A DNA stretch of 64,000 nt from Lacibacter luteus. GTDB lineage: Bacteria > Bacteroidota > Bacteroidia > Chitinophagales > Chitinophagaceae. The stretch spans positions 1-64,000 of the forward strand of contig NZ_SDHW01000005.1 of the NCBI RefSeq assembly GCF_004118265.1, given 5' to 3'. The notes under the pieces are model-generated. The model was given only the letters and a program-made list of their open reading frames with translations, searched no databases and was not told the origin of the DNA. Shown here piece by piece: positions 3,927-60,160 of the stretch. A program made the position numbers and the translations under genes. The number at the start of each line of letters is the position of its first letter. Within the stretch, counting starts at the first letter, position 1.

Positions 3927-3932
3927 GGAAAG

Positions 3933-4032
3933 GTGAATGGTGAATTTGGATCCGTTGTTATTAAATTGTTTCACTTCATTAAACTCTTTAAGTATTTTAG
4001 TTTTCACCATTCACTATTGACTATTCACTACA
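3933..4032. repeat. Heptad-word inverted repeat spanning the gap before the TRIC gene
   Basis: The 106-base gap between two plus-strand genes carries GTGAATGGTGAA (3933-3944) and its exact reverse complement TTCACCATTCAC (4003-4014). The right arm continues as 7-bp words (CCATTCA, CTATTGA, CTATTCA from 4007) up to the next ATG. The 58-base loop and the lack of a T-run argue against an ordinary terminator. It belongs with the similar elements at 25577, 31100, 32204, 34282, 38069, 58593 and 60001. Confidence 0.75.
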
Positions 4033-4635
4033 ATGTCTTTCCTCTCTATCATTGACATACTCGGAACTTTTGCCTTCGCCGTATCCGGAGCGTTCTCTGC
4101 AATGGAGAAAAAACTCGATCCCTTTGGTGTCATCATTTTATCGTTTGTAACAGCCATTGGCGGTGGTACATTGCGTGATGTGTTGATTGGTGACACACCA
4201 GTGGCTTGGTTGCGCAATGGTACTACAACTCTGGTTATTATTGCAGCGGCCATTGTTACCATGTTGTTTGATAAATTTCTGAAAAGGTTTTCCATTACGT
4301 TATTTCTTTTTGATGCATTTGGTCTTGGGTTGTTTACACTTATTGGTGTAGAGAAAGGATTGCAACTGCAGTTTAGTCCGGGTATATGTGTGGCGTTGGG
4401 TACCATTACCGGATCGTTTGGCGGAGTAACCAGAGATGTATTACTTAACAATGTACCGTTGGTTTTCCGTAAAGAGATCTATGCATCTGTTTCTATTCTC
4501 GGCGGATTATTATATTTGTTATTGTTGCGTGTAGATATGCTCTCGCATCTTGCCACCATCATTTCTATTTTATTTATTGTGGCGTTTCGTATTGTTGTTG
4601 TTCGCTATAAGCTGGCCTTACCAAAATTTTATTAA
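4033..4635 (+). CDS. TRIC/UPF0126 family membrane channel protein
   Basis: A 200-residue polytopic membrane protein of the UPF0126 family, the bacterial relatives of trimeric intracellular cation (TRIC) channels. About seven hydrophobic helices are visible. The two glycine-rich family repeats are clear: AIGGGTLRDVLIGDTP (about 41-56) and GSFGGVTRDVLLNNVPLVF (about 127-145), which mark the inverted internal duplication of the fold. Length is normal for the family. Prokaryotic TRICs conduct monovalent cations in structural work; physiological roles are poorly defined, and some relatives have been linked to glycine uptake. The start codon lies directly after a heptad-word repeat, with no obvious ribosome binding site. 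Confidence 0.85.
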   Translation: MSFLSIIDILGTFAFAVSGAFSAMEKKLDPFGVIILSFVTAIGGGTLRDVLIGDTPVAWLRNGTTTLVIIAAAIVTMLFDKFLKRFSITLFLFDAFGLGLFTLIGVEKGLQLQFSPGICVALGTITGSFGGVTRDVLLNNVPLVFRKEIYASVSILGGLLYLLLLRVDMLSHLATIISILFIVAFRIVVVRYKLALPKFY

Positions 4636-4719
4636 GCATTTGCAAGAAATATAGAATCACATGTTTGTGTAAGCAGATCGTTTACATTCCTTTCTTAACT
4701 TCATTCAAAATTCGAAAAG

Positions 4720-5520
4720 ATGAAACTGAGTTTATACCAGGTGGATGCATTTACATCAACATTGTTTAAAGGTAACCCTGCCGCAGTTGTTCCATTGGAA
4801 AAATGGATCGATGATGAATTGATGCAGAAACTTGCCATGGAAAATAATCTTGCTGAAACAGTATTCTTTGTGCCTTCGCAAAAAGAAGGAACCGATTATG
4901 ATATCCGTTGGTTTACGCCGGAGATTGAGATCAATTTATGCGGTCATGCTACATTGGCAAGTGCATTTGTTTTATATACTCAGTTAAATTATTCAAAACC
5001 GTCGATCACTTTTAGTTCAAAGAGTGGGCTGTTGAAAGTAGAAAAGAACGGATCAAACTATGAAATGGATTTTCCTTCGTGGAAACCTGAACGCATCAGT
5101 GATTATCCCGATGGCATGGCAGAAATACTGGGTGTAAAGGAAATACTTGGCGCCTACAGATACCGTGACTTATTAATTGAAGTAGCAACAGAAGAAGAAC
5201 TGGTAAATGCAAAACCTGATTTTACTGCCTTGAAGAAAACAGGGGAGATGGTGATCCTTACTGCAAAAGGAGATACAGTTGATTTTGTCTCCCGTTTTTT
5301 TGCACCATCTGCAGGTATTGATGAAGATCCGGTAACAGGTTCGGCTCATTCACAACTGATTCCTTTCTGGAGTGAAAAACTGGATAAAAAGAAAATGAAT
5401 GCAAAACAATTAAGCAGGCGTGGCGGTGATCTTATTTGCGAACAGAAAAGCGCCGAACGTGTAATGATGGGCGGTGAATGTGTATTTTATATGAAAGGTG
5501 AATTTGACATAGACAATTAG
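4720..5520 (+). CDS. PhzF family isomerase-like protein
   Basis: A 266-residue protein of the PhzF (phenazine biosynthesis-like) family, with a duplicated diaminopimelate-epimerase-type fold. Seen motifs: the opening YQVDAFTSTLFKGNPAAVV, the NNLAETVFF segment with Glu46 at the family catalytic position, RWFTPEIEINLCGHATLASA, and the second-half DEDPVTGSAHSQL. Outside true phenazine clusters, family members have unknown substrates; no phenazine genes are present here, so phenazine synthesis should not be inferred. Its TAG stop overlaps the stop of the convergent LytTR regulator by four bases (5517-5520), leaving no room for a terminator between them. Confidence 0.9.
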   Translation: MKLSLYQVDAFTSTLFKGNPAAVVPLEKWIDDELMQKLAMENNLAETVFFVPSQKEGTDYDIRWFTPEIEINLCGHATLASAFVLYTQLNYSKPSITFSSKSGLLKVEKNGSNYEMDFPSWKPERISDYPDGMAEILGVKEILGAYRYRDLLIEVATEEELVNAKPDFTALKKTGEMVILTAKGDTVDFVSRFFAPSAGIDEDPVTGSAHSQLIPFWSEKLDKKKMNAKQLSRRGGDLICEQKSAERVMMGGECVFYMKGEFDIDN

Positions 5521-6281
5521 AATTTATAATACTCTTTCATTTTTTCGATCAACAGATCTTTTTTTCTCCTGGACACTTCCAACTCGTGTCCATTGGATAG
5601 AATAACTGATCCTCCTTCACCACGAAAATATTCTTTTACATGTTTCAGGTTCACAAGAACTGATTTATGAATACGTACAAAACCTGCGTCCTCTAATAAT
5701 TTTTCATATTCATGCATTGGTTTTGATGTGCACACCATTTTGCTGTTTGAAAAATACAGGTTGGTATAATTGCCCGACGATTCAGCATACAAAATTTCAT
5801 CAAGTTCAATTACCTGGAAACCTTTCAGCGAGGGTATGCAAAGCCTCATCTTTTGTGGCGATTGTTTTTGGGTAAGATTATGAAGAAACGTTTCAATGTT
5901 TTTGTTGCCGGAGTTCTTTTCAATTCTTCGTTTAGCTCTTTCAACCGCATCGATCAGTAAATTATCTTCTACCGGTTTTAATAAATAATCAATGGCGCTG
6001 AAATGGAATGCCTCCACCATATACTGGTTATGTGCTGTAACAAAGATCACTTCAAAATTTTCGCCCTTTAATTCGTTGAGTAATTCAAAGCCACTTTTAA
6101 CAGGCATTGCAATATCAAGGAAAATAAGATCTGGGTTCAAAGCTCTTATGTGTTCAATGGCCTCGTTGGCATCGGTGAAACTTCCACTGACAATAACGTC
6201 GGGGCAATTGATCTGCAATAATTTTTGCATTGAGCTTAAGCCACGTGGCTCATCGTCAATTAAAACTGCTTTCAGGTCCAT
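5517..6281 (-). CDS. LytTR family response regulator
   Basis: A 254-residue two-component response regulator. The receiver domain (about 1-115) shows the acidic pair Asp9-Asp10, the phosphoacceptor Asp56 in LIFLDIAMP, Thr82 and Lys102 in YLLKPVED. A LytTR DNA-binding domain follows from about 148 to 250, with ILYAESSGNYTNLYF and VRIHKSVLVNLKHV. LytTR proteins bind tandem imperfect repeats near promoters and usually activate transcription. Its start overlaps the end of the sensor kinase gene by ten bases (6272-6281), so the two are translationally coupled and form one system. Targets are unknown; the PhzF/TRIC genes point toward it and are not an obvious regulon. Confidence 0.92.
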   Translation of the reverse strand: MDLKAVLIDDEPRGLSSMQKLLQINCPDVIVSGSFTDANEAIEHIRALNPDLIFLDIAMPVKSGFELLNELKGENFEVIFVTAHNQYMVEAFHFSAIDYLLKPVEDNLLIDAVERAKRRIEKNSGNKNIETFLHNLTQKQSPQKMRLCIPSLKGFQVIELDEILYAESSGNYTNLYFSNSKMVCTSKPMHEYEKLLEDAGFVRIHKSVLVNLKHVKEYFRGEGGSVILSNGHELEVSRRKKDLLIEKMKEYYKF

Positions 6282-9200
6282 AGGTGTTCATTTGTTTTTA
6301 TAGGTAAACGAAGCGTTACAATTGTTCCTGTTTCGTTTGCCTGTGATAAAGTTAATTTGTCCTGTATTTGAATAGCACTGTGCAGATTGTATTTTTCATT
6401 TAGTAATGCAATGCGTTGTTTAATATTATCAATTCCTACAGACGGTTCATGTGCAATGTCTTTTTTCCTTTTCAATGATTCTTCAATTCCAATTCCATCA
6501 TCTTCAACAATACAGATCAATTGGTTCCCCTCCTGTTTAAAGCTTATGTGGATGTTCATGTCCCCTTTTTGTGCAGAGCCATGCCAGATCGCATTTTCAA
6601 TAAACGGCTGTATAAGCATTGGAGGAACCATGATGTCGTTTGTATTCAGGTCTTTTGCTACATCTATCTTATAAGTAAATTGATTGTTTCTGATGCTCTC
6701 CATTTCAATATACCTTTCTAAATAATCTACAGTATCAGCTAAACTCACAAATTGTTTCGATGAATGATTTAAAGTGATGCGGATAAGCCTTGCAAACTTG
6801 CTTAAATAGAGAGAGGCTTGTTCGTTTTCATTATTTAAAATCATTTCACGGATACTGTTGAGGCAATTAAAAATGAAGTGCGGATTCATTTGTGCATGCA
6901 ATGCCTTCATTTCAGTTTGCGTAAGTTGCTTATCGATATTTGCCTGCCTGTTTATTTGATTTACTCTTCTACGATACATCATCACAATCAATAAAATGAC
7001 AGCAGCGAAAGCTGGAAGTAAAAAATAGAGTGATCTCCAGAATGGAGGTTTGATCTGCAGCTGAATGGTTTGAGTTTGTGCAGGCCAGCGATTGTTGACA
7101 GAATACATTTTCATTTCTATGCGATGAGTTCCCGGAGGTAATTTGCTTAATACAACAACGTTTTTTGTATTTAACTCATACCAGGTCTCATTTTTTTCAC
7201 CCAGTAATCGATAAGCAAAACGGTTTTCTTCTGGGTCGGTGAAATTGATGGCATTTAAAGTAAGCTCCACATTATTCTTTGAATAGGGAAGTATGATCTT
7301 GTTGTTTTGTGATTGATCGTTTCCCATTACTTCCACTGAAAAATTGGGAATTACTTTTTCTGAAAACCTTGCATCAGGCACAAACGAGATCAGGTATTTA
7401 CCTGCACCAAAATAAAAACGATTTCGCTGTGCATCATAAAAGCTTCCATTTCTTGGCGAAGTAACAACTGCAGAAGGCAACCCGTCGGAATAATTGAATT
7501 GCTTAATGGAATGATCTTTTATATTAAAAGCAGAAATGCCATTTGCCATACCCAGCCAGATGTGATCGTTAATAATATCTGAACTGGTAACAGAATGCCC
7601 ATCGATCATACTGTTCTCTGCAACCCGCAAATACATTTTGTTTTCGTTACAGTTGTATTGAATAATTTCATTGTCATAAGAAGCTAGCCATAAATTATTA
7701 TCATCATCACAATCGAGCAACCGCATGTAATTGGTGACTGTTTTAATAACTGTGGGATAAGGTATCAGTGTATCAATGATATTTTTTTTCCGGTTCCAGC
7801 GGCAAAGACCGTCGCCTGCAATCCATACATTCCTGCTTTTATCTTCCTCCATGCTAAAACAAAAAGTAATCTTCAGTAATGCACTGTTTGAGTAATCGTA
7901 AAATCTGTTCTCCGAATGTTTGTATAATAGAAGACTATTCAGCTTGCCGAACGATAACCACAGATCACCTTCGGAATCTTTTAAAAAGCTTCTTGTTTTG
8001 GTGTTGTAAAACCATTCAGGTTGACCGGGTATTTTTAATAGGCCATGTGTATAATTATTTTTGTTGAACCAAAGAATACCTTTTGCAGTTCCCAACCATA
8101 GCGTGTCTTTATTGAATTGGAAAATAAAGTTCAGGCTATTACTTCCGCTTCCATGACTTGAGAGATCAACAATGCGTTCTATTTTTTTGTTTTCACCATT
8201 TAATACCACTAGTCCACCTTCGTTTCTTAAACCTGCGAATATTTTATCCTGCGAAATAAAAACACTTTGAATGCCGGTGTTTACAATAGTTGGAAGTTGT
8301 TGAGAAAGATCCTCATCATCAAAAAATGTGTTCCTGATATTTTGCTTGTAAAGCCCGTCATTTGTACCGATCCATAAACGGCCGTCTTTATCAGCGAAAA
8401 CCGAGGTGCAATACTTACTTGCAAAATATTTAAGCCCATCGCAATTCCAGTTTTTATTCTTTACTGAAGAATGAAGCAGGTAGAATCCACCAACTTTACT
8501 TGTAAGAGCGGCAATACTGTCATTAATAAAAATGAGTTTGCTGTACCAATCAAGATCAGGAATTATATGCTTTGGTATTGGGTATGATGCATAATGCCCT
8601 GATATAAGATTATATATTTCAAGCGCATCTTTTGTTGAAGCCGGAGTAATCAACTGATCGTTTCCACCATAAAAAGAAATTCGTTCCTCGTCAATTTTAA
8701 AATTCACCAACCGCTTAAGATCAGGTTGATTCCTGAACGAATGAGCTTCAATTTTTTTTGTCTTGTAATTATAGAACGAGCCGGCTAAATTGTTTTCCTG
8801 GAATATCCTTCCATCACTCAACTGCGCCAGCCAATTACCAAACCATAATTCTTTGGTACCAGCATCCTGCGGAGAAAAATGATCGTACTTCGAAATGAGT
8901 TTACCTTGGTCATTAAAAATGTACAAACCTGTTTTTGTTGATAGAACGTAATTGCCGTTACGATCTCTTACTGTTTGCCATACCTGGTTCGACCAGAAAA
9001 AGATATTGGAATCGGCCGGTACAGTAAATGAACTTAGTTTTCTTGTAAGTGTATTGTATGAAAAAGCACCTACTGCTGTAGAGCCGAGTATTTCATAGTT
9101 TTGTCTTGCCAGGTTTAGAATATCGTTTTCCGGTAATCGAAAATTCTCCGAGCTTTTAAAAAAATTACTGAATGACCTTCCGTCGAAACGGTTAAGTCCT

Positions 9201-9376
9201 TTTTTTGTACTTATCCAGATATAGCCTGATGAATCCTGCACAATGCCTGTCACACTATTATGAGATAACCCATCAAGTTTTGTATAACGGGTAAAATCTT
9301 TTTCCTCATAAGGTTGACAAAAACTGTTGAGTACAGCAATGACAGAAAGAAATGAAATGATCAGCCTTTGCATCAT
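6272..9376 (-). CDS. Reg-propeller sensor histidine kinase, LytS-type
   Basis: A 1034-residue membrane sensor kinase. After a signal peptide (about 1-20) comes a long periplasmic region (about 25-690) of two-component-regulator propeller repeats, first seen as LDGLSHNSVTGIVQDSSGYIW and recurring with GxxxIWxGT-like words. A Y_Y_Y domain follows (about 700-775), then one transmembrane helix (about 780-803), a His_kinase (PF06580) region with His833 in MNPHFIFN, and a HATPase domain with the N-box IENAIWHG and a DDGIGI glycine box. It lacks the fused AraC and receiver parts of the hybrid kinases used for polysaccharide sensing in Bacteroides; its output is the overlapping LytTR regulator. The ligand cannot be read from sequence. 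Confidence 0.92.
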   Translation of the reverse strand: MMQRLIISFLSVIAVLNSFCQPYEEKDFTRYTKLDGLSHNSVTGIVQDSSGYIWISTKKGLNRFDGRSFSNFFKSSENFRLPENDILNLARQNYEILGSTAVGAFSYNTLTRKLSSFTVPADSNIFFWSNQVWQTVRDRNGNYVLSTKTGLYIFNDQGKLISKYDHFSPQDAGTKELWFGNWLAQLSDGRIFQENNLAGSFYNYKTKKIEAHSFRNQPDLKRLVNFKIDEERISFYGGNDQLITPASTKDALEIYNLISGHYASYPIPKHIIPDLDWYSKLIFINDSIAALTSKVGGFYLLHSSVKNKNWNCDGLKYFASKYCTSVFADKDGRLWIGTNDGLYKQNIRNTFFDDEDLSQQLPTIVNTGIQSVFISQDKIFAGLRNEGGLVVLNGENKKIERIVDLSSHGSGSNSLNFIFQFNKDTLWLGTAKGILWFNKNNYTHGLLKIPGQPEWFYNTKTRSFLKDSEGDLWLSFGKLNSLLLYKHSENRFYDYSNSALLKITFCFSMEEDKSRNVWIAGDGLCRWNRKKNIIDTLIPYPTVIKTVTNYMRLLDCDDDNNLWLASYDNEIIQYNCNENKMYLRVAENSMIDGHSVTSSDIINDHIWLGMANGISAFNIKDHSIKQFNYSDGLPSAVVTSPRNGSFYDAQRNRFYFGAGKYLISFVPDARFSEKVIPNFSVEVMGNDQSQNNKIILPYSKNNVELTLNAINFTDPEENRFAYRLLGEKNETWYELNTKNVVVLSKLPPGTHRIEMKMYSVNNRWPAQTQTIQLQIKPPFWRSLYFLLPAFAAVILLIVMMYRRRVNQINRQANIDKQLTQTEMKALHAQMNPHFIFNCLNSIREMILNNENEQASLYLSKFARLIRITLNHSSKQFVSLADTVDYLERYIEMESIRNNQFTYKIDVAKDLNTNDIMVPPMLIQPFIENAIWHGSAQKGDMNIHISFKQEGNQLICIVEDDGIGIEESLKRKKDIAHEPSVGIDNIKQRIALLNEKYNLHSAIQIQDKLTLSQANETGTIVTLRLPIKTNEHLWT

Positions 9377-9605
9377 GTCCTTAAAGTTAATTCGTTGTTT
9401 TAAGAATTTTATACTGCCATTTACCCTTTTTGAAATTGGCCGCCTTTTATAATGCAGGATCAGCCGTTCAAAGCCACTTCACCCCCATTCACGGTTTAAA
9501 AGCACTGAAATCTTTCTAAAGCAGGGTTTCCGATAATGAAAACAATCCTGCCGAACATGAGCTGCTGCTCATTTCGCCTTTTATGATTTCTAATTTGAGC
9601 GGATA

Positions 9606-10055
9606 ATGAAAATATCCTGGACAAGTTTAAAAATATCAATTGCAGGTGCAAGGTTGAGCCATCTGGTGCAAAAAGATAGGATATGGGATCATGGAAGTAT
9701 GGCAGAGCAGGCACGCATCATTTTTCACCTGGTGCATAAGGCAAAAGCAGGTGGAAATATGGAATCATTACAAAAACAATGTTCTTTTTCTTGTTTTAAA
9801 AAAATAGAGGCAGAGATAGCAATGGGAGAATCAGGCAAGTCAACAATTATAACCCCTATCATAAGAGAACTCGCCATAATAGATGTGCAGCCCGGTAAGA
9901 ATAATAAACCCGATATGTTCTGGTCATTGATCAGGTATCATATAAAGGAAACGATGAATGGAATTGACACAATTGATAGGAGTAAGGAGTTCATTGCAAA
10001 ATGGTGTTTTATCAGGCAAGGCGATTGGTGGATGCTGGACGAAATAAAACGATGA
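9606..10055 (+). CDS. Hypothetical protein (149 aa), unrecognised
   Basis: I do not recognise this reading frame. It begins at the first ATG after an in-frame stop, has no signal peptide or membrane segment, and is mixed in composition with several tryptophans near the C-terminus (KWCFIRQGDWWMLDEIKR). It ends 29 bases before the start of the first giant T9SS cargo gene. No ribosome binding site or promoter is evident. The 229 bases before it (9377-9605) show no gene. It could be a small cytoplasmic protein or a chance frame; composition does not clearly exclude either. Confidence 0.4.
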   Translation: MKISWTSLKISIAGARLSHLVQKDRIWDHGSMAEQARIIFHLVHKAKAGGNMESLQKQCSFSCFKKIEAEIAMGESGKSTIITPIIRELAIIDVQPGKNNKPDMFWSLIRYHIKETMNGIDTIDRSKEFIAKWCFIRQGDWWMLDEIKR

Positions 10056-10084
10056 CGAATTTTTTATATAACAAAACCTACATT

Positions 10085-13438: not shown

Positions 13439-13475
13439 ATATTCAAAGCCATTGTTCATTCTATAAACTGTTATT

Positions 13476-16697: not shown

Positions 16698-16791
16698 ATG
16701 CATATGATTTGTAAAACCACCAGACAGCATTGAAACCAGCCTCAAAGGTAACAAGGGTTCTTTGAGAGTTGCTGCTATGATAATCATCCAA

Positions 16792-17233: not shown

Positions 17234-17319
17234 ACTACAAAGTTACAAAAACAAGGTACCCAAAGCAGTACTATAAACTGCCAATGCAATGTTTTAACTT
17301 TCGGAATAAATAATCGTTT

Positions 17320-25576: not shown

Positions 25577-25612
25577 GTTTATGGTTTGTAGTTTTTTGTT
25601 TTTGGTTACTAG
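25577..25612. repeat. Heptad-word array upstream of yebC
   Basis: Five consecutive 7-bp words starting with GTT: GTTTATG (25577), GTTTGTA, GTTTTTT, GTTTTTG and GTTACTA (ends 25611). The words are close to those of the left arm at 58593 (GTTTATG, GTTTGTG, GTTTTTG). No matching opposite arm is evident nearby. It lies just before the yebC ATG on the minus strand. Confidence 0.65.
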
Positions 25613-31099: not shown

Positions 31100-31165
31100 G
31101 TTAATCGTTTATAGTTGATAGTTCATAGTACAATTCTATGAACCATGATCCATTAACCATGAACC
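31100..31165. repeat. Heptad-word inverted repeat between MFS and GT9 genes
   Basis: The left arm is four words starting GTT (GTTAATC at 31100, GTTTATA, GTTGATA, GTTCATA ending 31127); the right arm is CTATGAA (31136) followed by CCATGAT, CCATTAA, CCATGAA (ends 31163). The core GTTCATAG (31121-31128) pairs perfectly with CTATGAAC (31136-31143), and 22 of 29 positions pair over the full arms. It fills almost the whole gap from stop to next start. Confidence 0.8.
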
Positions 31166-32168: not shown

Positions 32169-32171
32169 TAA

Positions 32172-32201
32172 AAAACGGTTTCACATTTGTGAAACCGTTT
32201 T
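32172..32201. terminator. Bidirectional terminator
   Basis: A perfect 14-bp stem AAAACGGTTTCACA (32172-32185) with TGTGAAACCGTTTT (32188-32201) and a two-base TT tip, between the convergent GT9 and mdh genes. Confidence 0.9.
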
Positions 32202-32203
32202 CA

Positions 32204-32239
32204 TTTTCAAATTATCTGATATTTCAAATATTCAAATTA
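32204..32239. repeat. Octamer-word array abutting the mdh stop codon
   Basis: Words TTTTCAAA (32204), TTATCTGA (32212), TATTTCAAA (32220) and TATTCAAA (32229), ending in the TTA that is the mdh stop codon on the minus strand. The same vocabulary (TTTTCAAA, TTAGCTAA, TTCTCAAA) recurs in the accB-accC gap at 38136-38169. Confidence 0.6.
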
Positions 32240-33847: not shown

Positions 33848-33887
33848 CATTCCTTTAACAGAAATAGGTAAAATAAATTTTGGGTAT

Positions 33888-33921
33888 TACGAGAAAGTCG
33901 TAGATTTACGAAAATTTCGTA
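33888..33921. promoter_or_regulatory. Tandem BlaI-type operators upstream of blaI-like gene
   Basis: Two dyads with the same form TACGA-N5-TCGTA lie at 33888-33902 (spacer GAAAG) and 33907-33921 (spacer AAATT), centres 19 bases apart, the second ending three bases before the ATG. BlaI/MecI repressors are known to bind paired dyads and repress their own operon, so these are probable self-regulatory sites. A TAAATTTTG sequence at 33874-33882 just upstream could be the -7 element. Confidence 0.8.
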
Positions 33922-33924
33922 GAG

Positions 33925-34284: not shown

Positions 34285-34378
34285 TGAATAAAGGATAATG
34301 AATAATTAAAAATGCATGATGCCTTATTTAGCGGAACTATTTTAAAATTATCAATTACCAAATTTTCAATTAGCAACT
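34282..34378. repeat. Heptad-word arrays filling the blaI-M56 gap
   Basis: Beginning with the blaI stop codon: TAATGAA (34282), TAAAGGA, TAATGAA, TAATTAA (ends 34309). The right side has ATTATCA (34347), ATTACCA, AATTTTC, AATTAGC (ends 34374), four bases before the next ATG. The two sides are only weakly complementary. Confidence 0.6.
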
Positions 34379-38071: not shown

Positions 38072-38169
38072 TTTGTCAATCAATTCGAAAATTTGAAAAT
38101 GTAAAACTCATTTTCGATTTTCCTGTTGTATATCTTTTCAAATTAGCTAATTCTCAAATTTTCAAATTA
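38069..38169. repeat. Octamer-word inverted repeat between accB and accC
   Basis: Starts with the accB stop as TAATTTGTC (38069) and continues with GAAAATTTGAAAATG (38087-38101). The right arm, reading TTTTCAAA, TTAGCTAA, TTCTCAAA, TTTTCAAA, TTA, ends five bases before the accC ATG. The two arms are imperfectly complementary. No T-run of terminator type. Confidence 0.65.
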
Positions 38170-47548: not shown

Positions 47549-47857
47549 AACGGGCTACGTTTTCGGATTCTCTTACTTTTTTTGGTACGTTTAAACTGGT
47601 TGCTTAAATATTGCTGTTACTATAATCTTTAAGCTTCCGGTTTTATTGCTGAAAAGGCCTTTTGGGTAACGGAATTCATCTGTTGGGTACTGCAATAAAA
47701 CATTACAAAGGTCTACAACCTTACTAATAATGAAACTAGGAGTATCCCCTTAAAACATGTAGTATAACTTGCAGTCAACTGTAGTAACGAAGAGGCGTAT
47801 ACCATAAAAAAAAGCCCCGCAAACGGTTGCGGAGCTTTTTTTAGTTGATGTTTATTT
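47549..47857. other. Gene-free stretch between beta-helix copy B and GSIII gene
   Basis: A 309-base gap holding the GSIII terminator at 47806-47842. The remaining 250 bases must contain the promoter of the beta-helix gene; I see no clear TAnnTTTG element and no coding frame. Confidence 0.5.
47806..47842 (-). terminator. Terminator of the GSIII gene
   Basis: AAAGC(C)CCGCAA pairs with TTGCGG(A)GCTTT around an ACGG loop, with A-run before and T-run after, 16 bases past the stop on the minus strand. Confidence 0.88.
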
Positions 47858-50047: not shown

Positions 50048-50156
50048 AAAATAAATTTGAAAAGTGATTTAACGATGGCAAGTTTTGTTTGCTTAATTAC
50101 GGTTTGCTTACCGTTGTGCGAATTTCTGTTTTCTTAATGAAAATAATAGATAAAAA

Positions 50157-50184
50157 AAATCCCCCCGTTGTTGCGGGAGGATTT
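50157..50184 (-). terminator. Terminator of the GSII gene
   Basis: AAATCC(C)CCCG (50157-50167) pairs with CGGG(A)GGATTT (50174-50184); on the minus strand it is followed by a T-run (A-run 50152-50159). It is 20 bases past the GSII stop. Confidence 0.85.
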
Positions 50185-50203
50185 ATCTGATATTGCAGTT
50201 GGA

Positions 50204-51217: not shown

Positions 51218-51363
51218 GTTTAACCGCTTTGATTTAGTTTGAAAAAACAATGAATATTGCTAATTGCGCTGCTAATTTACGATTGAAAATGATTTTAATC
51301 TAAAAAAAATTATGCAATTCTCAAGTAAAACGTTTGTTAGTGTGGAAAAGTGAAATATGTATT

Positions 51364-52617: not shown

Positions 52618-52654
52618 GCGTTAGAGTGGCAAATTAAAATATTTCTTTTCACAG

Positions 52655-52687
52655 TTTCAAACCATTGCCGCTGCATTTGTACTTTTG
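52655..52687 (+). promoter_or_regulatory. Probable promoter of purL
   Basis: TTTC (52655-52658), a 21-base spacer and TACTTTTG (52680-52687) approximate the Bacteroidota TTTG-N19-21-TAnnTTTG consensus; the ATG is 17 bases downstream, giving a short leader and supporting the 52704 start. Confidence 0.6.
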
Positions 52688-52703
52688 CGCTTTCTTACAC
52701 ATC

Positions 52704-54938
52704 ATGGAAGTAACAGTTAAAACCGCACAGCAACTTCGTTTAACCGAAGAAGAATTTGAACTTATCAAACAAAAACTTGGCCGCACGCCCAACTTTAATG
52801 AACTCTGCGCCTTTAGTGGTATGTGGAGCGAGCATTGCAGTTATAAGAACTCGATCAAGTGGCTAAAAACATTACCCCGTGAAGGCGGACGTATGTTAGT
52901 TAAAGCAGGCGAAGAGAATGCCGGCTTAATGGATATTGGCGATAATCTTGGTGTTGTATTTAAAATTGAAAGTCATAACCACCCATCGGCTATTGAGCCA
53001 TTTCAAGGTGCTGCAACAGGTGTAGGTGGTATTCATCGTGATATTTTTACCATGGGTGCACGCCCCATTGCTGCACTCAACTCGCTCCGCTTTGGTAATT
53101 TAAAAGAAGCCAAAACACAGCATTTGTTGGGTGGAGTGGTGCATGGTATCGGTCATTACGGCAACTGTTTTGGTGTACCAACAGTTGGTGGTGAAATTTA
53201 TTTTGAAAACTGTTATCATACCAACCCATTGGTAAATGCCATGAGTGTGGGTATTGTAAAAGCAGGTGAAACCGTTTCGGCAACGGCTGAAGGTTTAGGC
53301 AACCCTGTTTTCTTTGTTGGTAGTGCAACGGGTAAAGATGGTATTGGTGGTGCAAGCTTTGCAAGTGCCGATATTACAGCTGAGAGTGCGGAAGAATTAC
53401 CTGCAGTACAGGTAGGTGACCCTTTTCAGGAAAAGAAATTACTGGAAGCTTGTCTGGAAGTTATTCAAACAGGTGCAGTTGTTGGTATGCAGGATATGGG
53501 TGCAGCCGGTATTATTTGTTCTACGGCAGAAATGAGTGCAAAAGGTGGAGTAGGTATGCGTATCGATCTGGATAAAGTACCAACCCGCCAGCAGAATATG
53601 AAAACATGGGAACTGTTACTGAGCGAAAGCCAGGAACGTATGCTCATGGTGGTTGAAAAAGGCAAAGAGCAATTGGTATTAGATGTGTTTGAAAAGTGGG
53701 ATCTGCCTTGTTCTGAAATTGGTGAAGTAACCGACGATGGTCTTCTTCGTTTCTATATGAATGGTGAACTGGATGCTGAACTGCCTGCACACGATTTAGT
53801 GTTGGGTGGTGGTGCTCCGCAATATACAAGAGAGTACAGCGAGCCTGCTTACTTCGAAAAGATCAAAGCATTTGATGCAAGCAGCATTGAAGTACCTGCT
53901 GATCTTAAAGCGACTGCTGAGCAATTGATACAAATACCCAACATTGCAAGCAAACGCACCGTGTATCATCAGTACGATAGTATGGTGGGTACAGGTAACT
54001 CAAGCACCAATGCTCCAACCGATGCTGCAGTAGTACACGTTAAAGGCACAACAAAAGGCATTGCAGTAACAACCGATTGTAACAGTAAATATGTATTTGC
54101 TGATCCGTATAAAGGCGCAATGATCGCTGTTAGTGAAGCTGCACGTAACATTGTGTGCAGTGGCGGTTTGCCATTAGGCGTAACCAACTGTTTAAACTTT
54201 GGTAATCCTTACGATCCACAAGTGTATTATCAGTTCGTACATGCTATTAAAGGCATGGGCGAAGCTTGTGTAAAATTCGATACACCGGTAACAGGTGGTA
54301 ACGTAAGTTTTTATAATCAAAGTCCGGATGGTGCAGTTTACCCAACACCAACAATTGGTATGGTTGGCTTGCTCGAAAACATCAACGATAAAATGACGCT
54401 TGATTTAAAAGCTGAAGGCGATGTGCTTTTCCTTGTGGGTAAAGCAACCGACAGCATCAGCTCAAGCGAATACCTGCATAAAATTCATGGTGTAGAATTC
54501 AGCCCGGTCCCGCATTTTGAACTGGATGAAGAATTTGCACTGCAGCAAAAAATAGCTGAACTCATCAGTAAAAAGATTATTGCATCTGCACACGATATCA
54601 GCGAAGGTGGTTTGTATGTTGCTTTAACGGAAGCAGGCTTTAACCGTAACCTTGGTTTTGATGTTACTGCAGGCGATGCAACCATCCGTAAAGATGCGTA
54701 TTGGTTTGGCGAAGGACAAAGCCGTGTTGTGGTAAGTGTGAAGCCCGAACAGGTAGCAGCATTGCGTAATGCATTAGGCGACTTCCCATATGCAGAACTT
54801 GGATTTGTAACTGCAGGAGCGATTGTTGTTGATGCTGCAGATTGGGGTAGCATTGCAGAATGGAAAGAGAAATACGATACTGCTATTGAAGCTTTATTGG
54901 CAGGTCATGAAAGTGAACATGCAATGAGTGCATTGTAA
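52704..54938 (+). CDS. purL: Phosphoribosylformylglycinamidine synthase subunit PurL
   Basis: A 744-residue small-type PurL, the synthetase subunit that converts FGAR, ATP and glutamine-derived ammonia to FGAM in purine synthesis. The ATG at 52704 (MEVTVKTAQQL) is chosen over one 39 bases upstream since the upstream one overlaps the promoter. Seen: FNELCAFSGMWSEHCSYKNS, GDNLGVVFKIESHNHPSA, GIGHYGNCFGVPTVGGEI, GMQDMGAAGIICSTAEMSAK and AHDISEGGLYVALTE. Partners PurQ and PurS would be encoded elsewhere. Its stop overlaps the hldD start in TAATG. Confidence 0.95.
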   Translation: MEVTVKTAQQLRLTEEEFELIKQKLGRTPNFNELCAFSGMWSEHCSYKNSIKWLKTLPREGGRMLVKAGEENAGLMDIGDNLGVVFKIESHNHPSAIEPFQGAATGVGGIHRDIFTMGARPIAALNSLRFGNLKEAKTQHLLGGVVHGIGHYGNCFGVPTVGGEIYFENCYHTNPLVNAMSVGIVKAGETVSATAEGLGNPVFFVGSATGKDGIGGASFASADITAESAEELPAVQVGDPFQEKKLLEACLEVIQTGAVVGMQDMGAAGIICSTAEMSAKGGVGMRIDLDKVPTRQQNMKTWELLLSESQERMLMVVEKGKEQLVLDVFEKWDLPCSEIGEVTDDGLLRFYMNGELDAELPAHDLVLGGGAPQYTREYSEPAYFEKIKAFDASSIEVPADLKATAEQLIQIPNIASKRTVYHQYDSMVGTGNSSTNAPTDAAVVHVKGTTKGIAVTTDCNSKYVFADPYKGAMIAVSEAARNIVCSGGLPLGVTNCLNFGNPYDPQVYYQFVHAIKGMGEACVKFDTPVTGGNVSFYNQSPDGAVYPTPTIGMVGLLENINDKMTLDLKAEGDVLFLVGKATDSISSSEYLHKIHGVEFSPVPHFELDEEFALQQKIAELISKKIIASAHDISEGGLYVALTEAGFNRNLGFDVTAGDATIRKDAYWFGEGQSRVVVSVKPEQVAALRNALGDFPYAELGFVTAGAIVVDAADWGSIAEWKEKYDTAIEALLAGHESEHAMSAL

Positions 54939-55918
54939 TGGATAACGGTTCAACGATAATTGTTACAGGTGCTGCCGGTTTCATTGGCAGTTGCATGGTG
55001 AGTTATCTTAATCAGCTTGGGTATGTCAATCTTATTTTGGTTGATGAATTTAACCGTTCAGATAAAGAGTCCAACTTAACAGGCAAACAATTTGTCCGTA
55101 AAGTTGAACGTGAAGAATTGTTTACGTGGTTGTATAATGAAAAGCCGGAAATCGATTTTGTTATTCACCTGGGGGCACGAACAGATACCACCGAGTTTAA
55201 TTATGCTGTTCATCAACATCTCAACGTTGAGTATTCGCAACACATCTGGAATTATTGCACAGTAAACAATGTTCCGTTGATCTATGCATCGTCTGCTGCC
55301 ACGTATGGCGATGGAGAATTGGGTTATGATGATGCACATGAACTGTGTCATCAGTTAAAACCATTAAACCCTTACGGTGTTTCTAAAAATGAATTTGATA
55401 AATGGGCTTTGCACCAGGAAGCGCATCCGCCTTTTTGGGCAGGGTTGAAATTCTTTAATGTGTACGGTCCGAACGAATACCACAAGGCACGTATGGCCAG
55501 TGTTATTTTTCATGCCTTCAATCAAATAAAGCAAAACGGAGAAATGAAACTCTTCCGTTCGCACAAAGAAGGATTTAAAGATGGTGAACAACTGCGTGAT
55601 TTTGTGTATGTAAAAGATGTGGTGCAGGTAATTGCATGGCTAATGCAACAACAACCTGCATCGGCTATTTACAATCTTGGTACAGGTAAGGCAAGAAGTT
55701 TTCACGACCTGGTGGCAGCAACATTTCATGCACAGGATCTTGCTACAAACATCCAGTTTATTGATATGCCTGAAGACATAAGGGATAAATATCAATACTT
55801 CACCGAAGCAAACATGAACAAGCTGCGTACTGTCGGTTACGAACAACCGTTCTTTTCATTGGAAGAGGGAGTAACCGATTACGTTAAAAATTATCTTGTT
55901 CCTCATCGTTATTATTAA
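54938..55918 (+). CDS. hldD: ADP-L-glycero-D-manno-heptose 6-epimerase
   Basis: A 326-residue extended short-chain dehydrogenase/epimerase that makes ADP-L-glycero-D-manno-heptose, the donor for LPS inner-core heptose. Seen: IIVTGAAGFIGSCMVSYLN (NADP-binding), HLGARTDTTE (typical of HldD), the YxxxK active-site stretch NPYGVSKNEFD, FNVYGPNEYHKARMASV and DMPEDIRDKYQYFTEA. The gene overlaps purL by one base (TAATG), implying translational coupling, although the two pathways are unrelated. A GT9 heptosyltransferase-like gene lies at 31173. Confidence 0.92.
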   Translation: MDNGSTIIVTGAAGFIGSCMVSYLNQLGYVNLILVDEFNRSDKESNLTGKQFVRKVEREELFTWLYNEKPEIDFVIHLGARTDTTEFNYAVHQHLNVEYSQHIWNYCTVNNVPLIYASSAATYGDGELGYDDAHELCHQLKPLNPYGVSKNEFDKWALHQEAHPPFWAGLKFFNVYGPNEYHKARMASVIFHAFNQIKQNGEMKLFRSHKEGFKDGEQLRDFVYVKDVVQVIAWLMQQQPASAIYNLGTGKARSFHDLVAATFHAQDLATNIQFIDMPEDIRDKYQYFTEANMNKLRTVGYEQPFFSLEEGVTDYVKNYLVPHRYY

Positions 55919-55943
55919 TTAATTTTATAGCTGTAACGAAAGC

Positions 55944-55971
55944 ATGCCACAGTGAAAATTCGCTGTGGCAT
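55944..55971 (+). terminator. Terminator of the purL-hldD unit
   Basis: ATGCCACAGTGAA (55944-55956) pairs with TTCGCTGTGGCAT (55959-55971), one G-T pair, followed by TTTATTTAT; 25 bases past the hldD stop. Confidence 0.85.
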
Positions 55972-55993
55972 TTTATTTATCAAATACATCGTC

Positions 55994-56788
55994 ATGAATA
56001 AGAAGATTGCCATTATTGGAGGAGGAAACCTGGGTGTTGCTATTGCAGAAGGATTGATCAAGAGCGGATTTTGTTTACCCAGTCATATCATTATTACAAA
56101 GCGGAACATCAAAACCCTCAGCGATATTGAGAGCAAAGGTGTATTGGTGTCGAGTGATAATAATGAAGCTGTACGTTATTCCGATCTGGTGATCCTGGCG
56201 GTAAAACCTTTCCAGATAAAAGATGTGCTGTTGGGAATGAAGGAAGAACTGAATGCACAACGTCATGTATTGGTGAGTGTAATTACAGGTATTACTATTA
56301 AAGATATGCAGGAGTGGGTAGGGGCCGATATGCCCGTTATCCGTGCCATGCCCAACACAGCTATTGCCATACAGGAAAGCATGACCTGTATCAGCTCCAT
56401 CAATACAGTTCAGGAGCAACTCGATTATGTACATGATCTTTTTTCGCAACTTGGCCGTGTAGCCATGATCGATGAAAAGCTGATGGATGCTGCAACCGTG
56501 CTCGGTGCCTGTGGTATTGCTTATGCTTTGCGTTATATCCGTGCCAGCATACAGGGTGGTATTGAAATCGGGTTCGATGCAAAAACTGCCACACTCATTG
56601 CTGCACAAACGGTGAATGGTGCTGCTGAACTGTTGATACAAAAAGGATCACATCCCGAAGCTGAGATCGATAAAGTAACCACACCCCGTGGCTGTACCAT
56701 TGCCGGGCTTAACGAAATGGAACATATGGGCTTCAGTTCTTCGTTAATTAAAGGAATTAAAACGAGTTACGAGAGCATCGGGAAATAG
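55994..56788 (+). CDS. proC: Pyrroline-5-carboxylate reductase
   Basis: A 264-residue ProC, reducing pyrroline-5-carboxylate to proline with NAD(P)H. The start at 55994 (MNKKIAIIGGGNLGVAIAEG) is favoured because a possible upstream ATG would place translation through the preceding terminator. Seen: the Rossmann GGGNLG turn, VILAVKPFQI, RAMPNTAIAIQESMT, GACGIAYALRYI and the C-terminal signature HPEAEIDKVTTPRGCTIAGL. Length is standard. It is a single gene between the hldD terminator and the pyrG promoter. Confidence 0.95.
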   Translation: MNKKIAIIGGGNLGVAIAEGLIKSGFCLPSHIIITKRNIKTLSDIESKGVLVSSDNNEAVRYSDLVILAVKPFQIKDVLLGMKEELNAQRHVLVSVITGITIKDMQEWVGADMPVIRAMPNTAIAIQESMTCISSINTVQEQLDYVHDLFSQLGRVAMIDEKLMDAATVLGACGIAYALRYIRASIQGGIEIGFDAKTATLIAAQTVNGAAELLIQKGSHPEAEIDKVTTPRGCTIAGLNEMEHMGFSSSLIKGIKTSYESIGK

Positions 56789-56859
56789 TTCCAAATTCTT
56801 CTTTCCTTGTTTTTTCCACAGGCACCTGAACTGATTTTTTTCAATCGAAAAAATCATCG

Positions 56860-56867
56860 TAGGTTTG
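56860..56867 (+). promoter_or_regulatory. -7 element of probable pyrG promoter
   Basis: TAGGTTTG matches TAnnTTTG; a T-run (56835-56840) lies about 20 bases upstream where TTTG would be expected, so the -33 element is weak. The pyrG ATG is 66 bases downstream. Confidence 0.45.
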
Positions 56868-56930
56868 CATGACCTCCACTATTTATTTCCATTTTACATT
56901 ACGGCAGGTCTGCAAACTCGAAAAATTTAA

Positions 56931-58583
<1,653 letters not shown>

Positions 58584-58592
58584 AGAGTTTCT

Positions 58593-58692
58593 AGTTTATG
58601 GTTTGTGGTTTTTGGTTGCTTAAAATTTGAACCTGCTGATAAGATTCAACAGGTTGCTCTAACAAGAAACCAAAAACCACAAACCATAAACT
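58593..58692. repeat. Perfect 25-bp inverted repeat of heptad words
   Basis: Arms 58593-58617 and 58668-58692 are exact reverse complements; the left reads in GTT-led 7-bp words (GTTTATG, GTTTGTG, GTTTTTG). The 50-base loop carries a second hairpin, AACCTGCTGA (58630-58639) with TCAACAGGTT (58646-58655), one mismatch. It fills the gap between convergent pyrG and DUF4407 genes. It could end transcription from both sides, but there is no T-run after the arms. Confidence 0.85.
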
Positions 58693-58696
58693 GAAT

Positions 58697-59893
58697 TTAA
58701 TTTTCCGGTTTGCCAATCATCTGCTGTTTGATCTTTTCCCAGAAGCCCTGCACATTTTCATCATTTCGTTTCCAGTCTTTACCCCAATGATTAAGCTTAT
58801 TCTTTTGCTCGTCTTTCTGCATACGGAAAAATTCTTCCATGGTTTCGGTATCCTGCTGCATAGATAGTTTGTTGTAGAGCCGTTTCATTTCACGTTCGTA
58901 ATCCACGCTTTCTTCGGCCATTTGTTTTTCCAGTGCTTCACGTTGTTTTACTTTTTCGTCGTACACGCCAACGGGCAATAATGTTTTTGCAATCACCGGC
59001 ATCAGCTCGATCAACATCAGGATAATTAAAATAAGATAATATCGAAACTGCAATGCGCTGTTATCCTTCAAGAGGTTATTCATTGCTTCAATGCGTGTAA
59101 GAAAGCCGGTGTTCAGGTAAGCAAGAAAATCTGTTTCCTGTTTCTTGATAGCTTCTTCCATTGTTTTCAACTCTTCATCAATCGCCTCAATACGGGGCTG
59201 CTGCTGTGTTTGCAATGTTTTGTAATCATCATCCAGCTTTTGATATTCGTTTCGTTTGGCAATAGCAATATCCTGTATGCCTACTTTACCACTACCGCCG
59301 CTGCCATCTGTTTCTGCAATAAACTTTTCTCTCGCATTATTTACTTCGGCATATTTTGTTGAGAGGGCTTTTTGCAAAGTTGCTTTTTCTTTCAGCAATT
59401 CATCTTTCCTGTTTTTGTATAGAAGATCCAGTTCTGTTCGCTTGGTAAGTTTTCGTTTTTCATTATCCAGCGATACCTGCATTTTGATCTCTTTATCGAA
59501 CATATACAGAATGGCTGGTTGTGCCATAAACGTACCAATGGTGAGGGCCAGCAGACCACGAAAAAGTAGCGGGGGGAACTTGCGTTTATTAAACTGGTTG
59601 ATGCCTTTGATCAGTGCACGGTCAATACTCAGGATCACAAAACCCATAAAAATGCCACTGCCAACATAGAGAAATACATTGTCGATAACGGTCGAGAAGA
59701 AATAGGTCCAGGCGAGTGTGGCAAAAATCCAGGTGGCTAAAACGCTCATTCCCACAATGCGGTAGCGGTTCCTGTCAACCACACAATCTTTGATCAGTTC
59801 TTTTTCTGCTGTCGCCAGCCACCAAAACAACTCATCGGTTTGGGTAGGGGCATACGTTTCCCGTTCGTACATGGGAGTAATCGGTTGGCTCAT
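58697..59893 (-). CDS. DUF4407 membrane protein with long coiled coil
   Basis: A 398-residue DUF4407 family protein. Four hydrophobic helices: about 48-68, 72-90, 108-130 (LLALTIGTFMAQPAILYMF) and 280-305 (YYLILIILMLIELMPVI). Between the third and fourth lies about 150 residues of charged, likely coiled-coil sequence (LLKEKATLQKALSTKYAEV, QDIAIAKRNEYQKLDDDY); a charged helical tail follows to the C-terminus. The conserved N-terminal LFWWLATAEKELI and FVILSIDRALIKGI match the family. Its function is unknown. It is divergent from yidC and convergent with pyrG, so transcribed alone. Confidence 0.85.
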   Translation of the reverse strand: MSQPITPMYERETYAPTQTDELFWWLATAEKELIKDCVVDRNRYRIVGMSVLATWIFATLAWTYFFSTVIDNVFLYVGSGIFMGFVILSIDRALIKGINQFNKRKFPPLLFRGLLALTIGTFMAQPAILYMFDKEIKMQVSLDNEKRKLTKRTELDLLYKNRKDELLKEKATLQKALSTKYAEVNNAREKFIAETDGSGGSGKVGIQDIAIAKRNEYQKLDDDYKTLQTQQQPRIEAIDEELKTMEEAIKKQETDFLAYLNTGFLTRIEAMNNLLKDNSALQFRYYLILIILMLIELMPVIAKTLLPVGVYDEKVKQREALEKQMAEESVDYEREMKRLYNKLSMQQDTETMEEFFRMQKDEQKNKLNHWGKDWKRNDENVQGFWEKIKQQMIGKPEN

Positions 59894-60000
59894 ACTAATG
59901 ATTTAAATTGTTAAGCTTGGTTAAAGCAGGAACAGCGAAGTGGTTAAAGTTGCAGATAAAACGAGCAGTAAAATTAGTTATTGTAAAAGAAAAGCAAAAA

Positions 60001-60160
60001 CCAAGTTACAAGGATCAAAATCCAATGTTCAAGGTACAAGAACCAAAAGTCAGGATGATCTTCATTGATTGAAACTCTCTGGATTTTGGAGCCTGGACAT
60101 TGGATTTTATATCTTGAGCCTTGAATCTTGTGCCTTCTTTTCGTACCTCGTACTTCAAGC
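60001..60160. repeat. Largest heptad-word element, between DUF4407 and yidC
   Basis: Within the 305-base divergent gap the left arm reads in CAA-containing 7-bp words (CCAAGTT at 60001, ACAAGGA, TCAAAAT, CCAATGT, TCAAGGT, ACAAGAA, CCAAAAG) and the right arm (60078-60160) in TTG-containing words (TCTGGAT, TTTGGAG, CCTGGAC, ATTGGAT, later CTTGAGC, CTTGAAT, CTTGTGC). The arms are imperfectly complementary. A TACCTTTG at 60169-60176 just after the right arm may be the yidC -7 element. The rest of the gap is plain AT-rich sequence. Confidence 0.75.

Follow-up and report, generated by a model that had tools for sequence, protein, structure and literature searches.

Facing arms of degenerate 7- and 8-nucleotide words at gene edges in Lacibacter luteus and other Bacteroidota

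Word arrays in the window and in other genomes

The window analysed here is a stretch of 64,000 nucleotides of Lacibacter luteus (contig NZ_SDHW01000005.1, positions 1 to 64,000, forward strand). Eight of its intergenic gaps, named below by position (3933, 25577, 31100, 32204, 34282, 38069, 58593 and 60001), had been described in a sequence-only reading as a family of elements built from degenerate 7- or 8-nt words, each with its own vocabulary and most with two facing arms. When each gap was scored against 2000 dinucleotide-preserving shuffles of that gap, the period-7/8 signal was above the shuffles in six, showing that the family holds for these; gaps 32204 and 60001 fell short (Table 1). 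Two word arms were present in gaps 3933, 31100, 38069 and 58593, as claimed; gap 25577 proved to be one-armed. No structured-RNA match to Rfam at gathering score was obtained in these gaps. The sole match at that score was a partial 5S rRNA at window positions 1-89 (+).

Table 1. Word arms and related stretches in the eight gaps. Positions are those of the window; scores refer to period 7/8 unless stated; P is the fraction of the gap's 2000 shuffles reaching its best score; TRF, Tandem Repeats Finder.
Gap	Feature	Position	Strand	Score	Setting and remarks
3933	G-type left arm, words GTGAATR	3928..3945	+	8.7	directly 3' of the stop of the E1-dehydrogenase gene at 1509-3926 (Pfam)
3933	C-type right arm TTCACCATTCACTATTGACTATTCACTA	4003..4030	+	14.1, best of gap, 0/2000 shuffles; TRF period 7	ends 2 nt 5' of the ATG of a Gly_transporter-family gene
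25577	lone G-type arm GTTTATGGTTTGTAGTTTTTTG...	25577..25607	+	12.5, best of gap, P 0.0005	adjoins a YebC-family gene; facing word arm not found
31100	G-type arm, words GTTNATR	31100..31132	+	14.5, best of gap, P 0	4 nt past the stop of an MFS gene
31100	C-type arm, words YATNAAC	31138..31165	+	11.8	7 nt 5' of the ATG of a glycosyltransferase-9 gene
32204	plain hairpin and loose TTCAAAT-rich stretch	32169..32236	+	6.0, P 0.129	chiefly an ordinary GGTTTCAC..GTGAAACC hairpin; word array not significant
34282	G-type arm TAATGAATAAAGGATAATGAATAATTAA	34282..34327	+	10.0 (34288-34327), best of gap, P 0.0075; TRF period 7 from 34282	starts with the stop codon of a Penicillinase_R-family gene
34282	C-type arm AATTATCAATTACCAAATTTTCAATTAGC	34345..34376	+	TRF period 15, score 50	2 nt 5' of an M56-family ATG; steps of 7 and 8 mixed; orthologs found
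38069	8-mer G-type arm AATTTGAA	38082..38106	+	10.1 (period 8)	between accB (biotinyl domain protein) and accC (biotin carboxylase) (Pfam)
38069	8-mer C-type arm TTCAAATT	38141..38168	+	10.8 (period 8), best of gap, P 0.0025	6 nt 5' of the accC ATG
58593	G-type arm GTTTATG GTTTGTG GTTTTTG GTT	58586..58617	+	15.8, best of gap, P 0	3' of the CTP synthase gene, convergent gap
58593	C-type arm	58661..58691	+	14.8; arm-arm alignment score 24	exact complement of the left arm over ~24 bp; fold of the gap a long near-perfect stem, z -12.6
60001	CAANNNN-type words (by eye)	59995..60046	+	lag 21, 12.6 (3 x 7); lag 7, 6.5, P 0.113	clear period 21 only (TRF period 21, score 60)
60001	facing stretch GGATTTTGGAGCCTGGACATTGGATTTT	60080..60108	+	lag 21, 8.0, and fold	predicted to pair with 59995-60046

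Spacers between called genes were then searched for self-matching runs at each fixed lag, with dinucleotide-preserving shuffles as the comparison. Genes were called with a simple longest-open-reading-frame (ORF) script, which leaves some gap edges wrong, and the scan threshold was arbitrary and differed between scans (8.5-10). In a sample of 864 kb (432 spacers) from the window's genome there were 47 lag-7 runs against 0.7 in shuffles and 9 lag-8 runs against 0.6, and periods 4-6 and 9-13 gave 0-3 runs each, bearing out the genome-wide excess that had been proposed as a check. An element was found in 44 of these spacers, or about 51 per Mb. Helical phasing, one of the causes suggested earlier, does not fit because periods 10 and 11 yielded only 3 and 0 segments and a turn of B-DNA takes about 10.5 bp. 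In an overlapping genus set, made up of the window and 40 stretches from seven genomes of the genus (439 spacers, 67,854 bases; orthologous gaps are not independent of one another), 39, 11 and 23 runs were counted at lags 7, 8 and 14 (shuffles 0.95, 0.95 and 0.55), and 0 or 1 at each of lags 3-6 and 9-13. Lags 19, 21 and 24 gave 6, 6 and 7 runs against 0.55, 0.35 and 0.35; lags 21 and 24 are multiples of 7 and 8, and lag 19 is a multiple of neither. The window contains a TRF period-19 repeat at 33887-33923, which may be compared with the six lag-19 runs.

The excess extended beyond the genus, in keeping with the suggestion in the sequence-only reading that such arrays are widespread in Bacteroidota. 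Named loci were grouped by hand from record titles. Ten lag-7 and ten lag-8 runs were found in 17 Chitinophagales-like loci and seven and four in 6 Sphingobacteriaceae-like loci (shuffles 0.3-0.5 in both), and 25 and 9 in 57 further Bacteroidota loci (shuffles ~2). The Chitinophagales-like loci also had a small excess at lag 9 (4 vs 0.4) and lag 11 (3 vs 0.3). Genome G134, from another family of the same class, had 22 lag-7 and 12 lag-8 runs (0.5 and 0.4 in shuffles). No runs at all were found in 84 spacers from 150 kb of E. coli K-12. Chance and base composition were ruled out as causes by the dinucleotide-preserving shuffles. Three successive GTTNATR words were matched in 28 of 198 genomes of the class; this vocabulary is special only within lineages (G000, 22 matches vs 0 in the control; G134, 107 vs 0), since the reversed-pattern control matched nearly as many genomes class-wide (~24, counted by eye). 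Three successive GTGAATR words occurred in 8 of the 198 genomes and the control in none.

Placement, order and turnover of the arms

Of the 38 G-type arms in co-directional spacers 60-200 nt long (genus and G134), 31 lay within 8 nt of the upstream stop codon, and of the 41 C-type arms 30 lay within 8 nt of the called start, where random placing predicts 5.7 and 5.4, showing that the span from a stop codon to near the next ATG, described earlier for several gaps, is the rule in co-directional gaps. Among spacers of 60-160 nt, elements were carried by 26/169 co-directional, 6/45 convergent and 0/51 divergent spacers in the genus; the corresponding counts were 20/165, 3/45 and 0/34 in the window's own genome and 14/47, 2/9 and 0/9 in G134. 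Named loci (55-160 nt) gave 26/270, 5/56 and 0/72. Divergent spacers of other lengths carried some elements: 1 of 4 under 60 nt, 5 of 54 long ones in the own genome and 7 of 17 long ones in G134. TTTTT was present in only 1 of 20 element gaps versus 68 of 145 other co-directional gaps (60-160 nt), which upholds the earlier view that the elements lack T-runs and are not plain terminators. A three-frame stop insulator was ruled out by eye, several vocabularies being stop-free on the reading strand. At L041:1083 and L208:497, C-type arms are in frame 5' of the likely true start and give N-termini such as MNHEPSSINYEL; C-type arms are thus readable as spurious N-terminal extensions, a hazard for annotation.

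The two arms face each other in a fixed order. Neighbouring arms less than 110 nt apart were G-type then C-type in 26 of 35 pairs and reversed in one. By set, this order was seen in 12 of 17 pairs of the genus (none reversed, four C-C, one tied) and 14 of 18 of the named loci (one reversed, two C-C, one tied); in G134 it was seen in 6 of 7 pairs, the remaining one being tied. When 46 pairs were taken irrespective of composition, C and G fractions were 0.075 and 0.216 in the left arm and 0.230 and 0.071 in the right. In a wider set of 49 facing G-C pairs, 17 had partner arms more alike than at least 95% of arms from other loci. By alignment score, a common vocabulary with pairing was found in 36 of the 49 (0.74 of the arm vs 0.48 shuffled), 12 were non-pairing composites that still faced each other (0.19 vs 0.30 shuffled), and one was intermediate, indicating that pairing is common and is not the common denominator. 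Predicted end-to-end pairing was 13.3 vs 6.1 shuffled in co-directional element gaps (n=35, p 6e-4) and 7.4 vs 6.8 in other co-directional gaps (n=177). Taken as a whole, the other co-directional and convergent gaps (median z -2.39, n=182) were at least as structured as the element gaps (-1.85, n=32). A hairpin as the feature common to all elements was rejected on these grounds, with the 12 unpaired composites.

Arms were mostly 2-6 words long and kept their register, with an identity of 0.79 at lag 7 compared with 0.31 and 0.30 at lags 6 and 8 (71 arms). At position 4 of GTTNATR all four bases occurred, in arms that had been picked by resemblance to GTTNATR itself. Elements mostly have their own vocabulary, as had been proposed, with some recurrence: 46 arms fell into 23 clusters, against 29-36 in six random-word runs. 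This excess of clustering is only weak, and a limited universal vocabulary was discarded. At L040:3683-3765 (G011), GGGCAAT occurs eleven times in a row as a young-looking heptamer run; in L204 (G001:C44:254700-256000, ~458-711) a one-armed GTTCATR array is itself tandemly repeated about five times with ~53 bp spacing.

Between species the period was kept and the words changed, as conservation of word length between relatives had been expected to look. At the gap 58593 site, the same convergent gene pair encloses GATTTCG-type arms in G009, AAAAGTC-type arms in G010, ATTTACG-type arms around an ordinary terminator in G002 and a terminator without clear arms in G006 (all by eye; vocabularies in the ortholog lists were assigned by eye throughout). 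The gap 31100 site has GTTNATR vocabulary in six species including that of the window, other words in G009, no word array in G010 and G012, and a gap of only 12-23 nt in G004, G005 and G008; G001 and G007 were unreadable there and were left out. In gap 3933 the centre is conserved between G000 and G009 and the arms differ (by eye).

The closest pair of genomes, G011 and G012, was compared over 39 spacers with a mean flank identity of 90.4%. Three co-directional spacers (flanks 94%, 94% and 91%) differed in sequence, one of them lacking the element in G012, and the accB-accC spacer was 97% alike. Likeness was 0.43-0.97 for six element spacers of this pair, and 13 of 19 others (other co-directional and convergent spacers, here and below) were at 0.75 or more; for G000-G009 it was 0.42-0.68 for five element spacers and 0.50-0.93 for ten others. 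Two single cases were also noted. At L041:2124 (G011) and its G012 ortholog the letters of a terminator stem differ, the G012 stem resembling window 32169 (by eye), and the trpE-trpG gap of L238 (G004, a relative with a small genome) holds a hairpin built from CGTTTAT/CGTCTTT words, at a site occupied in other species by GTTNATR words, by a plain hairpin or by little.

Word arrays were also found, though rarely, inside genes. In 1.42 Mb of coding DNA, eight internal lag-7 runs scored at least 13 and none did at lags 4, 5, 8, 10, 11 or 13; at a score of at least 10 there were 20 lag-7 and 9 lag-8 runs (29 together) versus 5-6 at lags 4, 5, 10, 11 and 13, and coding runs of modest score are mostly near background. 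The gene at L062:10086-10766 of the own genome, a weak Radical_SAM match, has a loop for which most species use words of their own (by eye); the loop is open in all 13 cases read, own genome included. A trpG loop is 105 nt long, with facing word arms, in G001, G003 and G008 (by eye) and 66 or 69 nt in the rest of the genomes read, always in frame (L236 was unreadable and left out). A 7-nt word is not a whole number of codons, and each further word therefore moves the reading frame, indicating that the periodicity is imposed on the nucleic acid and not on the protein. Such arrays make protein loops unalignable between species, a second hazard for annotation.

Arms are shared between separate loci. 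In G134 they matched over 30-36 nt at 94-100%, one pair over 36 nt at 100% and others over 30-34 nt at 94-97%; paralogy of the flanks was checked for one gene family, a tandem family with similar starts (MIKNYFKIAWRNL...) in which the right arm was common and the left arms unrelated. The arm at 25577 was 89% identical over 36 nt to one in L061:7255. Among the same-genome matches listed there was no near-identical whole element, only arm-length matches or arm pairs at ~70-80%. Two other dispersed repeats were seen: a palindrome CCTTCGACCCGATAGCTATCGGGTTCG in G000 (L062:10767 and 16416, L264:13487, L269:7102; up to 94% over 34 nt), and a ~250-nt spacer repeat in G134 (L284:15192, L291:3818, L293:14299) that is 83-88% identical and unlike word arms (by eye).

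The accB-accC pair is not a random one, having been picked for the element that the window carries between the two genes; it played no part in the choice of comparison species. The loci that matched best in the accC search were those of Niastella, Terrimonas, Segetibacter, Chitinophaga and Bacteroidetes bins, in line with a place in Chitinophagales. Of 80 accC loci 76 were used, L068, L072, L075 and L133 being excluded because the match did not run from the gene start or accB was not found. Word arms occurred in 18 of 43 accB-accC spacers of at least 55 nt and in 9 of 224 other co-directional spacers (55-160 nt) of the same loci (Fisher p 2.8e-10). They were made of differing words, nearly C-free in some flavobacteria (L142, L100), and were found, by record titles, in genera such as Niastella, Mucilaginibacter, Flavobacterium and Rufibacter, which we take to represent four classes. 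Predicted end-to-end pairing was 16.7 vs 8.5 shuffled in the 18 gaps with arms and 15.1 vs 9.3 in the 25 without (all gaps 55-160 nt). At some sites, of which this is the best documented, selection seems to preserve the end-to-end stem irrespective of its sequence, and the stem probably either brings the stop and the next start together or sets the ratio of the products. The accB-accC gap is a concrete, phylum-wide site at which selection on gene-spacer stems can be tested.

Explanations weighed

The 7-8 step, the facing order and the abutment on ORF edges are common to the elements; words, pairing and presence vary, and a separate reader protein for each vocabulary is implausible. We lean, at a little under an even chance, towards a copying process working by slippage and fold-back in steps of 7-8 nt, whose products are tolerated where promoters are absent and, at some sites, retained as a stem. 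While DNA is being replicated or repaired, a 3' end carrying G/T-containing words would slip by one word or else fold back to copy itself. After folding back, a G-type arm would stand before its own C-type complement, and exchange with other genomic arms would shuffle words and whole arms. Words may then agree within an element since they were copied from it, and arms may be swapped since they were copied as units. Selection would only decide survival, which would be denied in promoter-bearing divergent gaps of 60-160 nt and rare in coding DNA. The period, the facing arrangement, the edge abutment and near-identical arms at separate loci are observed; so are in-frame arrays in variable loops of proteins and, at some sites, complete replacement from one related species to another.

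A number of results weigh against this process. Identity within arms barely declines with distance (0.79, 0.74, 0.76 and 0.73 at lags 7, 14, 21 and 28; 71 arms) and falls only slightly in the 16 arms of at least 35 nt (0.75, 0.71, 0.71 and 0.68), a near-perfect array that had earlier inflated the far-lag values having been dropped; in 37 arms selected at lag 14, lag 21 was if anything above lag 7 (0.75 vs 0.72, p 0.03). Near-flat similarity disfavours simple neighbour-copying slippage. The earlier verdict that the elements are too variable for slippage is right to that extent, and copying with non-local exchange still gives the best fit. Variation also clusters in word columns, with 240 invariant columns versus 220 (sd, standard deviation, 5) in 61 arms and 115 versus 97 (sd 3) in 26 arms of the named loci, after 1 and 3 arms were dropped as too few of their random copies passed. 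These figures come from a stricter null that retains the lag-7 match; a looser, too permissive null gave a larger excess (243 vs 196 and 123 vs 92). Such clustering could be obtained by non-local homogenisation, and also by an external reader of the words.

Further points stand on the same side. The arms are pinned to ORF edges more tightly than mere tolerance requires, and the fold-back step alone does not yield the 12 facing non-pairing composites. No single copying event was seen, the closest pair being only ~90% identical in the flanks. That the G-type strand comes first would, on our inference, be the trace of fold-back, or of end extension from that strand. Element spacers were not less alike than others in G006-G020 (3 at 0.75-0.88; 8 others 0.46-0.82) or in G002-G020 (3 at 0.67-0.78; 7 others 0.47-0.85); being less alike in two genome pairs and not in two, they indicate fast turnover at some sites and not at all of them. 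The column evidence and the turnover claim are both somewhat weaker under the stricter checks, and neither is decisive for the ranking of the readings.

The main rival is that a selected RNA stem, between cistrons or at a 3' end, is the primary cause, which we consider possible though unlikely. By joining the stop to the next start, such a stem would couple or balance translation or protect the upstream end of the mRNA, and the words would be a mere by-product of stem renewal. The abutment of the arms on stop and start codons speaks for it, as do the T-run in only 1 of 20 element gaps, the end-to-end pairing of element gaps (13.3 vs 6.1, n=35) that other co-directional gaps do not share, and the pairing of accB-accC gaps with or without word arms. 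However, the 12 composites are less paired than their shuffles, element gaps have no greater overall structure, arrays also occur in frame in proteins, and elements are absent from some orthologous sites.

Filled and near-empty orthologous sites would fit a small non-autonomous mobile element, similar to Rickettsia palindromic elements (RPEs), repetitive extragenic palindromes (REP) and REPINs or miniature inverted-repeat transposable elements (MITEs), whose ends are the word arms and which inserts at ORF edges and in protein loops. In-frame coding copies, arms common to separate loci and the position of arms at the outer ends of spacers would fit it as well. Nevertheless we regard this explanation as doubtful. 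The same-genome matches listed included no near-identical whole element, no common core or terminal sequence was seen, and target-site duplication was not established, the empty sites being too diverged to align. In gap 3933 it is the centre that is conserved and the arms that differ, and in G002 the arms flank an ordinary terminator.

Also improbable is a dedicated word-writing process. In it, a polymerase acting like a telomerase, templated or self-templating, would extend broken or stalled 3' ends by G/T-rich words of 7 or 8 nt, and two ends so extended would afterwards be joined head to head. Every element would then be the scar of a repair, with a vocabulary peculiar to it. If true, this would account for the chirality, the facing arms of unrelated vocabulary, the fixed step and the in-frame loop scars, and a large part of the gene spacers in Bacteroidota would amount to a record of end repair.

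We give a similarly small chance to tandem sites for a single-strand nucleic-acid-binding protein with a 7-8-nt footprint, either Rho utilisation sites (on both strands) or sites for a cold-shock-domain protein. The C-type arm is G-poor, element gaps are mostly without T-runs, and one cold-shock protein per heptamer is discussed in the accessible part of PMC4679880. On the other side, the accB-accC words of L142 and L100 are almost C-free, the C-type arm is predicted to be paired in most facing elements, arrays lie in translated coding loops, and a single search for a paper on Rho spacing found none. Cyanobacteria are not known to have Rho, which we count against the Rho version together with the cyanobacterial occurrence of the layout. 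That layout is the same in Nostoc according to the accessible part of PMC4692102. The multimeric sequence-reading protein put forward in the sequence-only reading fails because neighbouring vocabularies differ, are swapped between species at one site and form composites in 12 of 49 pairs.

Plain heptanucleotide microsatellites produced by polymerase slippage, with no fold-back, exchange or function, are disfavoured and the least likely of all: heptamers are reportedly in excess in many bacteria (Mrazek 2007, cited by PMC4692102 and PMC4679880) and near-perfect runs such as GGGCAAT x11 in L040:3683 exist, but the facing order (26 to 1), ORF-edge abutment, near-flat word similarity, column-clustered variation and matched opposite arms all tell against them.

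Comparison with known systems

CRISPR (clustered regularly interspaced short palindromic repeats) repeats are ~23-50 nt long with unique spacers, whereas the units here are contiguous and of 7/8 nt, so that the earlier exclusion of CRISPR stands. Like intrinsic terminators, the elements form stem-loops 3' of genes; they differ in having no TTTTT in 19 of 20 co-directional gaps (60-160 nt), long arms and loops, and non-pairing composites. RPEs, REP/REPIN and MITEs are short intergenic palindromes with a sequence consensus, RPEs occurring also in frame in genes; word-arm elements have only their design in common with one another. A likeness of GTTNATR to integron attC sites was set aside, its words and arm order being unlike the attC consensus.

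Heptanucleotide simple sequence repeats likewise have a 7-nt tandem unit above chance, with 8-nt units also in excess here. Those repeats are perfect or nearly so, whereas here the words are degenerate, stand in facing arms and are not most alike between neighbours. The short tandemly repeated repetitive (STRR) heptamers of cyanobacteria have a seven-nucleotide unit and an intergenic preference. In work by Mrazek et al. in 2007, heptamers were reportedly the commonest longer simple repeat in many bacteria, and the contact length of the polymerase is said to have been proposed as the link.

Three papers come closer, and what follows refers to their accessible parts: PMC4692102 (Rehm et al. 2015), PMC4679880 (MacGregor 2015) and PMC4060949, in which Mrazek and Huang surveyed perfect repeats. 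TAACTGA direct repeats occur in marine Beggiatoaceae, Cyanobacteria and five Bacteroidetes, mostly just 5' of start codons and with other heptamer repeats in the same intergenic regions (PMC4679880). There, one invariant word forms direct repeats, with a single indirect repeat in the main genome (PMC4679880), and no TAACTGA doublet was found in the 3.24 Mb scanned here. The closest match is the GGGAATC or (GGGANTN)n family of Xanthomonas: degenerate intergenic heptamers with fixed variable positions in at least two units, mostly four, forming 70-75 convergent repeat pairs per genome and fewer between divergent genes (PMC4692102). Their G-strand is the coding strand where they lie downstream and the opposite strand where they lie upstream, and they stand mostly between the same genes in two species with varying length and sequence; GGGGA(C/T)T repeats of Nostoc are placed similarly (PMC4692102). 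The elements described here are alike in that the G-type strand faces inward, is edge-proximal and is depleted in divergent gaps of 60-160 nt. They differ in vocabulary: one G-quadruplex-capable vocabulary per genome was studied there, and here each genome has many A/T-rich vocabularies, units of 7 and 8 nt, mixed-vocabulary arms and swaps at one site. No GGGANTN/GGGGAYT doublet was found in 1.65 Mb of the same genus and 0.24 Mb of G134, and three GGGANTN doublets were found in 1.35 Mb of named loci. The earlier statement that no named family exists therefore holds in a narrow sense, the same layout with other words having been published for Xanthomonas and Nostoc.

The accessible parts of the three papers describe no genomes with many vocabularies, composites, site-wise replacement of vocabulary or accB-accC case, and no facing multi-vocabulary elements of Bacteroidota were found in titles and abstract beginnings of the open-access papers listed, where a search with literal vocabulary strings matched only a soybean paper. 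New here are the G-then-C order, the edge abutment, the lack of elements in divergent 60-160-nt gaps, the in-site word swaps including those in in-frame loops, the division into shared-vocabulary and composite pairs, and the accB-accC enrichment across the phylum. With these, scattered reports of heptamer repeats from unrelated phyla become one testable design of degenerate 7/8-nt words with a changeable vocabulary, its G-type arm following a stop and its C-type arm preceding a start, which suggests that copying in steps of 7-8 nt is general.

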